Below are positions 10,219 to 12,693 of a stretch of 34,289 nucleotides of DNA, in pieces. The stretch is from an uncultured bacterium (GTDB lineage Bacteria; Planctomycetota; UBA8108; UBA1146). Within the stretch, counting starts at the first letter, position 1, and the number at the start of each line of letters is the position of its first letter. The notes beneath the pieces are model-generated. The model was not told where the DNA came from, ran no database searches, and saw only the letters and a program-made list of their open reading frames with translations. The position numbers and the translations under genes were made by a program. The stretch spans positions 1-34,289 of the forward strand of contig CAJXMG010000029.1 in assembly GCA_913056395.1 (NCBI GenBank), read 5' to 3'.

Positions 10219-10944
10219 ATGCACTCTGCAGGATTCAAACGGTATCTGACAGCGGTGAGCATGCTGTTCCTGTCAGTACTTATTATTGCCGGCTGTGGTT
10301 CCGGCACACCTGAGGGGTCCGGTCAGAAAGTGAATCAGGCCCCGGCAGGCGTGACGGAAACGAGTGGGGGTGATCAATCTGAAAAGACCCCCGCTGTAAA
10401 TAAACCCGCCAGCTCCGCTAACGATAAAAGCCCCGCAGGAGGTTCGGCCGAAGGCGATGACACCGCTGAAAAAACTCCCCGATCTGTGGTCGATTTCCCC
10501 ATGCCAGACCTGACATTGCTGTCCGATGCGGCCTTTCAACGCAATGCGAAGATGGGGCGCCTGGTCGCAAAGCGTCGTTGCATCCTGTGTCATAAGATCG
10601 AGGGGCGTGGAGCGATCCTCCAGCCACCCCTGGTACAGGTCTCCATGCGTCGTTTGAAGCGCATGCTCGACTATGATGAGTACCTTGAGGAGCTTCAGGG
10701 TAGCGACCCGGACAGATTTACTGCCGGCCAAAAGACCTTCGACGCCATCGTCGCGGAGCAGGATGTTCTGAAAAGCATGCGTCTGTGGTTGAAGGGTTAC
10801 CTCAAGCAGCCCACCTTCGACAACTCTCAGGCAAAAATGCCCTTGCAGGTGCTCATTCCTGCAGAAATCGAACAACTTGCCTGTTATGTCATTCAGTTGG
10901 CTGTCGAGGGCTATCAAAAGGGTGAAACCCCCCTCGAAGACTGA
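10219..10944 (+). CDS. Cytochrome c-type lipoprotein
   Basis: 241 residues. A lipoprotein signal ends in the lipobox IIAGC (Cys26). A Pro/Ala/Ser/Asp-rich linker (about 27-90) follows. The C-terminal half has a single heme-binding motif C-I-L-C-H (Cys121, Cys124, His125) and a likely axial Met at AKMPLQ (Met207), as in class I cytochromes c, though the stretch between them is longer than in a minimal domain. It should be membrane-anchored on the outer side of the inner membrane and carry electrons; the partner is unknown. ATG 10219 has no clear Shine-Dalgarno site, but the signal peptide fits this start. No oxidase or dehydrogenase genes are adjacent. Confidence 0.85.
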   Translation: MHSAGFKRYLTAVSMLFLSVLIIAGCGSGTPEGSGQKVNQAPAGVTETSGGDQSEKTPAVNKPASSANDKSPAGGSAEGDDTAEKTPRSVVDFPMPDLTLLSDAAFQRNAKMGRLVAKRRCILCHKIEGRGAILQPPLVQVSMRRLKRMLDYDEYLEELQGSDPDRFTAGQKTFDAIVAEQDVLKSMRLWLKGYLKQPTFDNSQAKMPLQVLIPAEIEQLACYVIQLAVEGYQKGETPLED

Positions 10945-11111
10945 CAGACCTGTCGCAACTCTCTGCGGACTTAACTGTCATCACTGGCAGATGGGTGAGG
11001 TCTGCCCAACCCGATTCACTTCCAAAACCCACCAACCGTATACCTCTTTGCTGACGGTGCAGCCTCCGGCCAGCGGGGCTAGGCGAAAATGGGGGGGTGG
11101 ATAATCTAGGC

Positions 11112-11311
11112 ATATCAAGTTTCTCTACGCCGTGTTTCGCACTCTTCGGAATGACTTCGGGGGACGTCACCCGTGAGCTGGCAACAGCAGATCGAAACAC
11201 CCACTGCGGTTCCTCACCGCAGACACTTCGCGGGAGAAGCGGGGGACACCTGTGACGATTCTGAATCGTCACCTACCCTCTGACCCACTCCTCGGGTCGG
11301 AGGGTTTTTTT
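11112..11311 (+). ncRNA. Candidate structured non-coding RNA, family unassigned
   Basis: This protein-free gap can be folded by hand into nested helices. P1: 11119-11125 with 11234-11240, plus 11128-11130 with 11230-11232. P2: GTGTTTCG 11132-11139 with CGAAACAC 11193-11200. Inside P2: CTC/CGG 11142-11149 with CCG/GAG 11171-11177, TGAC 11152-11155 with GTCA 11166-11169, and a CTG-GCAA-CAG tetraloop hairpin (11178-11187). P3: CTGCGG 11204-11209 with CCGCAG 11217-11222. P4: GTGACGAT 11252-11259 with ATCGTCAC 11265-11272. P1-P2-P3 make a three-way junction. A GATAAT -10-like box sits at 11100-11105; the 5' end at about 11112 is inferred from it. An intrinsic terminator ends it. No plus-strand gene follows closely, so it is not an obvious riboswitch. 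The length suits 6S RNA, but I cannot assign it. Confidence 0.62.
11276..11311 (+). terminator. Intrinsic terminator of the candidate RNA
   Basis: CCCTC-T-GACCC (11276-11286) pairs with GGGTC-G-GAGGG (11294-11304), 11 bp with one T-G wobble over a seven-base loop, followed by seven T (11305-11311). The nearest plus-strand gene ends 330 bases upstream, which supports an independent transcript here. Confidence 0.92.
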
Positions 11312-11340
11312 ATGCCCTGATTTATCTGGAAAATGAGGCG

Positions 11341-11808
11341 TTAAACGCCGGCGAGACCCATATCGCTCTCATCGAGAAGGTTGAACCCATCTTCCAGAAG
11401 CAGATTTCTGGCGGTTTCATTTTCGTCGACATGAATGATGAGAACACCAAAACCATGGGGGCGGGTCAACATGGGGTAGGCGTAGTGAATGTTGATTTCA
11501 GCCTGGATCAGGCTGCGACAGATCATGCGGATTCCTGCACGCTCATTGGGAACCTCTACAGCCAGAATCTGACTGACAGAAGTGGGGACACCATTCTCCT
11601 CCAGAGCTTTGCAGGCGGTTCCGACGCGATCGACGACCATGCGAACGATGGCATGGTCCGCACTGTCGACAACGGAGAGGGCATGAACAAGGATGTCTTC
11701 AGCGGTGAGATGGCGCAGAATCTCACGCAACTTGCCCACACGATTATCGAGGAACAGGCTCAACTGTCTGACGTAGGGATCTGTGTAATCCTTTTCAGTC
11801 TTTAGCAT
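11341..11808 (-). CDS. Tandem ACT-domain protein
   Basis: 155 residues from ATG 11808, chosen because GAAGGGG lies eight bases upstream; an in-frame TTG nine codons earlier (11835) is possible. Two ACT-type beta-alpha-beta units follow: about 14-80 (QLSLFLDNRVGKLREILRHL...) and about 82-150 (ILAVEVPNERAGIRMICRSL...). Each shows the usual loop residues (N-R-V-G, N-E-R-A-G) after the first strand, where amino acids bind in this fold. There is no enzyme domain, so it is a stand-alone ACT protein, probably an amino-acid sensor or regulator. It converges on the candidate RNA and its terminator. The regulatory role is inferred. Confidence 0.88.
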   Translation of the reverse strand: MLKTEKDYTDPYVRQLSLFLDNRVGKLREILRHLTAEDILVHALSVVDSADHAIVRMVVDRVGTACKALEENGVPTSVSQILAVEVPNERAGIRMICRSLIQAEINIHYAYPMLTRPHGFGVLIIHVDENETARNLLLEDGFNLLDESDMGLAGV

Positions 11809-11856
11809 CAGTAGAACCCCTTCTCTCCTCGCCAATATTTCTGAACAGGGTAGCGA

Positions 11857-12693
11857 TCACGGGCCGCTGTTGCGACCCGGTGCGCCTCCTCCACCGGTAT
11901 TGCCATTATTGCTGTTACCGGAGTTGTTATTGTTGCCGTTGTTGTTGGAGGGAGGACCACCCCAGCCTCCTCGGCCACGTCCCCAGTCATCCTGGGGGAT
12001 TTCCAGATATTGCTCGTACTGGTTGGCGGTCAGGATTCCGGAAATTTCTTCATTCTGTTCTTCGCGAACCGTATTGAGAAGATTGCGGGTTTCACTTCTT
12101 CCGAGGTCCATCTCTCGGGCTTCCATCATGATCTGCATCCGCTCGGAGGAGTGGTCCACCATCAGGCTGGAAAATTGTTGGGCAGTACGATCGTCCAGTT
12201 GCAACTGTTCCGCAATTCGATTGGCTCGATCTGCCGACCTTTCGAGGGCACGTTCCTGCATTCTTTGCATGCGCTCTGCGCGTTCTTCTTCCTCGATGGC
12301 TTCAATGGTGTCACGGATTTGGGAATCAAACTCTTTGGCGGAGATTCCTGCGAGGGCGCCGCCCGTTCCGCTGTCACGGTTGCGGGGTACCTCTCTGGCA
12401 ATCGCCTGCATGCTGGCACGATCCTGGACAAGTCGGTTGGCGAGGGCGGTGACCAACTCCTCAGGGATATTTTCCTCCGAAGCGGATTCAGGCCCGGTGT
12501 AGGTGAAGACCTGGGCTTCACTCTTTTCCTCAGCCTGATTCTCCAGAGTTTCAATACGCTCTTTCAGCACCTGAAGGGTGTTGTTGGACTTTTGGATCTC
12601 TTGTCTGGCCTGTTCAATCTGTCCTTTTTGTTGAATAAAGGTACCGAAGCTGACAGCTCCCAAAATCCCGATGGCGATCATTACGTATTTCAT
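11857..12693 (-). CDS. Membrane-anchored coiled-coil protein with Spy/LTxxQ-like region and Asn/Gly-rich tail
   Basis: 278 residues from ATG 12693, which has AGAGGA about six bases upstream; an upstream in-frame extension looks non-coding. N-terminal membrane helix (about 3-19), coiled coil (about 22-57), then a long helical region (about 115-230) containing RANRIAEQLQLDDRTAQQF and LTANQYEQY (221-229), which resemble the LTxxQ helices of Spy/CpxP-type periplasmic proteins. The tail (about 236-278) is low complexity, rich in Gly, Asn and Pro. Members of the Spy fold act as periplasmic chaperones or metal-stress proteins; that role here is inferred. It lies 88 bases downstream of ftcD on the same strand. 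Confidence 0.8.
   Translation of the reverse strand: MKYVMIAIGILGAVSFGTFIQQKGQIEQARQEIQKSNNTLQVLKERIETLENQAEEKSEAQVFTYTGPESASEENIPEELVTALANRLVQDRASMQAIAREVPRNRDSGTGGALAGISAKEFDSQIRDTIEAIEEEERAERMQRMQERALERSADRANRIAEQLQLDDRTAQQFSSLMVDHSSERMQIMMEAREMDLGRSETRNLLNTVREEQNEEISGILTANQYEQYLEIPQDDWGRGRGGWGGPPSNNNGNNNNSGNSNNGNTGGGGAPGRNSGP

Follow-up and report, generated by a model that had tools for sequence, protein, structure and literature searches.

Which kind of gene occupies a gap of 396 bases without any protein gene in the genome of an uncultured planctomycete? The gap lies in a stretch of 34,289 nucleotides that was analysed as a whole (hereafter the window), between the end of a plus-strand gene at 10944 and the 3' end of a convergent minus-strand gene with an ACT domain at 11341. 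From the sequence alone, the original prediction had placed there an independent structured RNA gene of unassigned class with its own promoter and terminator, acting in trans or as a housekeeping RNA and possibly related to 6S RNA. The gap itself was borne out, and it almost certainly contains an RNA gene of about 199 nt at 11113-11311 on the plus strand, which is presumably expressed. The family to which this RNA belongs has no earlier description and is found in planctomycetes of three genera that are uncultivated and for the most part marine.

Extent and fold of the RNA gene

Taken alone, the segment 11113-11311 folds better than its dinucleotide shuffles (z -4.64, with none of 200 shuffles equally good), and z is -4.35 against shuffles for 11100-11311. 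The 5' end at 11113 is a putative one, set by promoter spacing rather than mapped. In the minimum-free-energy fold of 11113-11311, the helices P1 to P4, the GCAA-capped hairpin and the terminator with seven T all lie at the coordinates first proposed for them. The predicted three-way junction of P1, P2 and P3 proved real, and a second one (P2/P2a/P2b) was found where P2 ends. In the window fold, J1/2 measures a single nucleotide, and the predicted core is made of three-way junctions. The parts of the RNA are the following:

11113-11311, plus strand: RNA gene of about 199 nt, with relatives in 13 family genomes
11119-11130, plus strand: 5' strand of P1, of which 11119-11126 and 11128-11130 pair with 11230-11240 (minimum-free-energy fold)
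11132-11139, plus strand: 5' strand of P2, pairing with 11193-11200 (minimum-free-energy fold)
11147-11173, plus strand: P2a hairpin (11147-11149 and 11152-11155 with 11166-11169 and 11171-11173), with the conserved loop UUCGGGGGA
11177-11188, plus strand: P2b hairpin (11177-11180 with 11185-11188), with a GCAA loop (minimum-free-energy fold)
11193-11200, plus strand: 3' strand of P2 (minimum-free-energy fold)
11204-11222, plus strand: P3 hairpin (11204-11210 with 11216-11222)
11226-11247, plus strand: core motif CUUCGCGGGAGAAGCGGGGGAC, comprising a joiner, the 3' strand of P1 (11230-11240) and an exposed GGGGGAC (11241-11247)
11252-11272, plus strand: P4 hairpin (11252-11260 with 11264-11272)

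Folding the genera independently gave a common architecture of P1, the P2/P3 junction, the P2a/P2b junction, P4 and the terminator, from which the fold of one relative (G001) deviates inside P2. MAFFT by itself does not align P2b and P4 correctly, and the covariation count therefore draws on two other alignments, a sequence-only one (A3) without any lean towards structure and a model-fitted one of 13 sequences (A4) that does lean this way. In A3, 86.3% of cells pair, compared to 79.0% when shuffled and at most 51% with slid partners, and two-sided changes occur at 13 pairs (1 of 500 shuffles). In A4, 89.2% pair and two-sided changes affect 22 of 35 core pairs, a count that none of 500 shuffles reaches; since the sequences are related, these shuffle counts are not probabilities.

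Across the 13 sequences, two-sided changes are found in all eight pairs of P2, in five of eight pairs of P2a and in four of the six counted pairs of P3 (94.9% paired). A compensatory example from P2a is UGAC/GUCA, which reads UAAC/GUUA in G001 and AGAC/GUCU in G010. P1 has 96.6% of its cells paired and a two-sided change at one pair, and the core motif is invariant in 12 of 13 sequences except for one position. In the other genera, P2b carries a UUCG loop and a different sequence at the same position and with the same pairing, and the P4 hairpin is retained despite unrelated sequence.

The boundaries of the gene are marked by the following elements:

11079-11084, plus strand: -35-like element CTAGGC (family consensus [CG]TAG[TGC]C; 77% mean cross-genus identity)
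11102-11107, plus strand: -10-like element TAATCT, overlapping GATAAT at 11100-11105 (61% mean cross-genus identity)
11275-11311, plus strand: intrinsic terminator (stem 11275-11286 with 11294-11305, T run 11305-11311)
11287-11293, plus strand: terminator loop ACUCCUC, the proposed anti-Shine-Dalgarno seed, kept in three genera while the stem changes

The GATAAT box named in the original prediction is present, but the -10 frame common to the relatives is the overlapping TAATCT, 17 nt after CTAGGC. Across relatives, the two elements read [CG]TAG[TGC]C and TA..[CT]T; they are 17 nt apart in 12 of 13 genomes and 18 nt apart in one (counted by eye), and the spacer between them has a mean cross-genus identity of 43%, below that of either element. 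We nevertheless infer a promoter with caution because the -35-like element departs from the sigma-70 consensus, which may point to a sigma factor of an unusual type or to a site for an activator. The -35-like region is also part of a longer conserved stretch of about GGGGYTAGTCG (window 11079-11107 and 12 relatives), and no RNase P or SRP RNA locus that was inspected showed such a pattern. All 13 RNA-bearing genomes have the terminator and, as anticipated, it is a strong one, ranking first among the six terminator-like sites of 10500-11900 (shuffles average 1.4). Covariation and conserved promoter spacing together support an independent structured RNA gene, and a promoter and an intrinsic terminator of its own, as looked for in trans-acting base-pairing sRNAs, are found here at the level of sequence.

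Distribution and gene neighborhood

Of the 16 family genomes, 13 carry the RNA, in three genera and one copy each, with core identity down to 51%. A DNA search found it in all seven genomes of the window's genus (83-100% identity) and also matched a second genus, and covariance modeling, for which the first model was built on A3, added a third genus (G015, 72.6 bits). A second model, run across the class, gave no further copy at E below 0.1, and 392 sampled genomes of the phylum gave no added copy in a shallow search that scored only eight first-look candidates per genome. A pattern scan of 84,980 species genomes yielded 81 stretches, among which the model recognized 12 planctomycete family members and none other above 22.1 bits; 11 of these 12 records carry planctomycete or simply bacterial titles, including TMED53, UBA1146 and MCMED-G47. 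The phage records searched contained no match. Within the range of these searches, the RNA family thus appears to be lineage-specific. The twelfth record of the pattern scan (QNYK01000007.1, locus L047) is titled as a Bacillota bacterium; its content matches genome G010 of the planctomycete family, and the title is probably wrong.

In all three genera the RNA lies in the order patatin, glycosyltransferase, cytochrome c-like lipoprotein, RNA, convergent ACT gene, an unassigned gene and formiminotransferase-cyclodeaminase. Because of this synteny, the copies are best regarded as orthologues rather than mobile copies. The lipoprotein gene (10219-10944, plus strand) has a CxxCH motif (CILCH) without any Pfam match and immediately precedes the RNA in every relative checked. 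On the other side, the gene with a pair of ACT domains (PF19571; 11341-11835, minus strand) is convergent with the RNA in those relatives that have enough contig. Its match row reports an in-frame TGA in G002 and G003, and two further genomes of the family, G007 and G008, have this gene without the RNA beside it.

Comparison with known RNA classes

None of 4227 Rfam 15 families scores at or above its gathering score in the window, and five relatives have no family at E ≤ 1, in agreement with the unassigned class that had been proposed. The window alone has a weak likeness to Xoo2 (RF02241) that is confined to P4 and the terminator and reaches 30.3 bits vs a gathering score of 45; the five relatives do not match, and we rejected this identity.

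The suggestion of a divergent 6S RNA is not supported: the 6S model (RF00013) matches neither the window nor any of 30 relatives, with five of 14 control genomes positive, and the predicted fold is no rod opened at its center by a large single-stranded bubble, the feature of 6S that mimics an open promoter. Like 6S RNA and Ms1, the new RNA is a stand-alone gene of roughly 200 nt with a closing stem and conserved synteny, but it differs from both by the missing central bubble; Ms1, at about 300 nt, has such a bubble (PMC9130861). The idea of a housekeeping RNA is likewise not supported, given that RNase P RNA is encoded elsewhere in all 16 family genomes (G000:C9:39589-39965 in that of the window) and SRP RNA elsewhere in 14 of 16 (G000:C9:50593-50690 in that of the window), and the searches found the new RNA in no more than three genera, all of one family. 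Identity with RNase P or SRP RNA is rejected for the same reason, and ARAGORN finds no tmRNA in the window.

CsrB/RsmZ-type sponges share exposed, repeated GGA motifs with the new RNA, which differs in having only a few such sites and in that CsrA was detected in none of 13 RNA-bearing genomes, so that a sponge of this type was rejected. Within the family, CsrA is found only in G008 and G009 of genus g3 (loci L128 and L129), where the RNA was not found. An Hfq-dependent sRNA was rejected as well, since Hfq (PF17209) is detected in none of the 16 family genomes and in five control genomes. A riboswitch for a downstream gene is contradicted by the convergent orientation of the next gene in all relatives checked; no plus-strand gene follows, which supports the earlier view of an RNA that would act in trans.

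Conserved loops and possible functions

Conserved unpaired bases, which the original prediction had passed over, are found in the P2a loop (UUCGGGGGA), after P1 (the joiner CUUCG and the tail GGGGGAC) and in the terminator loop (ACUCCUC). The two G-rich motifs UUCGGGGGA and GGGGGAC are nearly invariant and, together with CUUCG, constitute the most conserved bases of the molecule; the motif YUCGNGGGA occurs twice, in the P2a loop and at the joiner/P1'. The terminator loop has at most one change across relatives though the surrounding stem varies, and in folds of genus g4 a part of it falls into the stem.

Among 313 crudely called genes in 434 kb of the window's genome (the window plus loci L130-L149), the 6-mer with the highest enrichment upstream of starts is GAGGAG (21 vs 2 in a background roughly twice the size), and AGGAGT ranks third. 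The loop ACUCCUC is complementary to both and hence to the commonest Shine-Dalgarno (SD) hexamer. Among 55 terminator-like hairpins in the same 434 kb, the only one with CTCCTC in its loop is the RNA's own terminator; a random 7-nt loop would contain one of the top three complements with a probability of 0.0015, a figure left uncorrected for a match that was spotted after the fact. Complements of the G-rich motifs show no enrichment at the starts of these genes. Taken together, the motifs GAGGAG, AGGAGG and AGGAGT are enriched upstream of starts, at 38% of genes vs 15% in the background.

As the best, if tentative, explanation we propose a stand-alone trans-acting regulatory RNA of about 199 nt from a new lineage-specific family, transcribed from its own promoter to its own terminator, that would block ribosome-binding sites via its terminator loop. 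Action in trans is suggested by the convergent next gene, i.e., the lack of a downstream gene on the strand of the RNA. The P1/P2/P3 core would serve as a rigid scaffold and the exposed ACUCCUC would pair with the purine-rich ribosome-binding sites (GAGGAGU) of target mRNAs, blocking their translation without Hfq. In this model, UUCGGGGGA and GGGGGAC would probably serve as binding sites for a protein or else cover the terminator loop by docking on it until it is needed. As isolated duplexes, the loop pairs with GGGGGA of the same molecule at -7.3 kcal/mol vs -11.6 for GAGGAGU, so that intramolecular pairing is a possible way of hiding the seed.

Similar modes of action have been described. 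The NfeR1/alpha-r14 sRNAs of Rhizobiales have conserved anti-SD motifs in loops on divergent stems and block translation in trans (PMC10746234), as proposed for the new RNA. They carry three CCUCCUCCC loops on three hairpins, compared to one CUCCUC terminator loop and a three-way-junction core, and there is no sequence relation or Rfam match between them. LhrC of Listeria monocytogenes binds an SD region partly via its CU-rich terminator loop (PMC4132741) but is multicopy with three redundant UCCC motifs, whereas the new RNA is single-copy and has a GC-rich scaffold with G-rich motifs.

Several points weigh against an anti-SD sRNA, namely that the loop match was spotted after the fact, that part of ACUCCUC falls into the stem in the g4 folds, that a bare anti-SD hexamer confers no target specificity and that the mechanism does not need the G-rich and CUUCG motifs, the most conserved bases. 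Since starts show no enrichment for complements of the G-rich motifs, the main role may instead be protein binding or scaffolding. The RNA could then be a sponge or a regulator of RNA polymerase, somewhat like 6S or Ms1 without being homologous, with UUCGGGGGA and GGGGGAC as binding sites and the anti-SD-like loop as incidental. This possibility is nearly as likely as the anti-SD mechanism, and sequence alone cannot decide between them. Unpaired G-rich motifs on a rigid scaffold as the most invariant bases and the double occurrence of YUCGNGGGA speak for it, and the niche of 6S RNA may be open because the latter was not detected in these genomes and is reported absent in Pirellula and Rhodopirellula (PMC5673643). 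However, a bubble like that of 6S is missing from the fold, CsrA as the evident candidate for binding GGA was detected only in genus g3, where the RNA was not found, and the conservation of the terminator loop is left without explanation.

A bolder version of the same idea, which we consider unlikely, is that the regulatory RNA belongs to a functional class of its own, binding protein with a scaffold of two three-way junctions that carries YUCGNGGGA/GGGGGA repeats. Such an RNA would replace the undetected global regulation of the 6S, Csr or Hfq type, and the G-rich motifs could conceal its anti-SD terminator loop by pairing with it. Equally, there is only a slim chance that the RNA is a 3' UTR element of the lipoprotein gene, i.e., a cis-acting stabilizer and terminator from which processing might release an sRNA. 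Gene and RNA are neighbors with conserved synteny in every relative and no terminator-like site was found between them, but conserved promoter elements with a 17-nt spacer just before P1 and long internal conservation beyond the needs of a terminator argue otherwise. An orphan riboswitch or other ligand-sensing element with its own transcript as output is very improbable: multi-helix junctions and invariant joiner residues would be aptamer-like, but the next gene is convergent and no Rfam riboswitch matches. Finally, a short protein-coding gene is largely refuted and the least probable of all. Both conserved motifs do share one reading frame in most g1 and some g4 copies (TSGD...LRGRSGG), but core lengths of 136-140 nt break this frame, stops come early in G010 and G015, and the ATG is lost in G001, G002, G003 and G010, in G001 by a substitution under which the base pair persists.

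Knowledge of planctomycete small RNAs is sparse, with a review table counting eight sRNA families for the whole PVC group vs 345 for Proteobacteria (PMC9029176). The RNA described here adds a well-supported new family in planctomycetes without detectable Hfq, CsrA or 6S RNA and, because its hosts lack these detectable regulators, offers a handle on post-transcriptional control in such bacteria. Its covariance model, conserved motifs and predicted seed loop permit direct tests.
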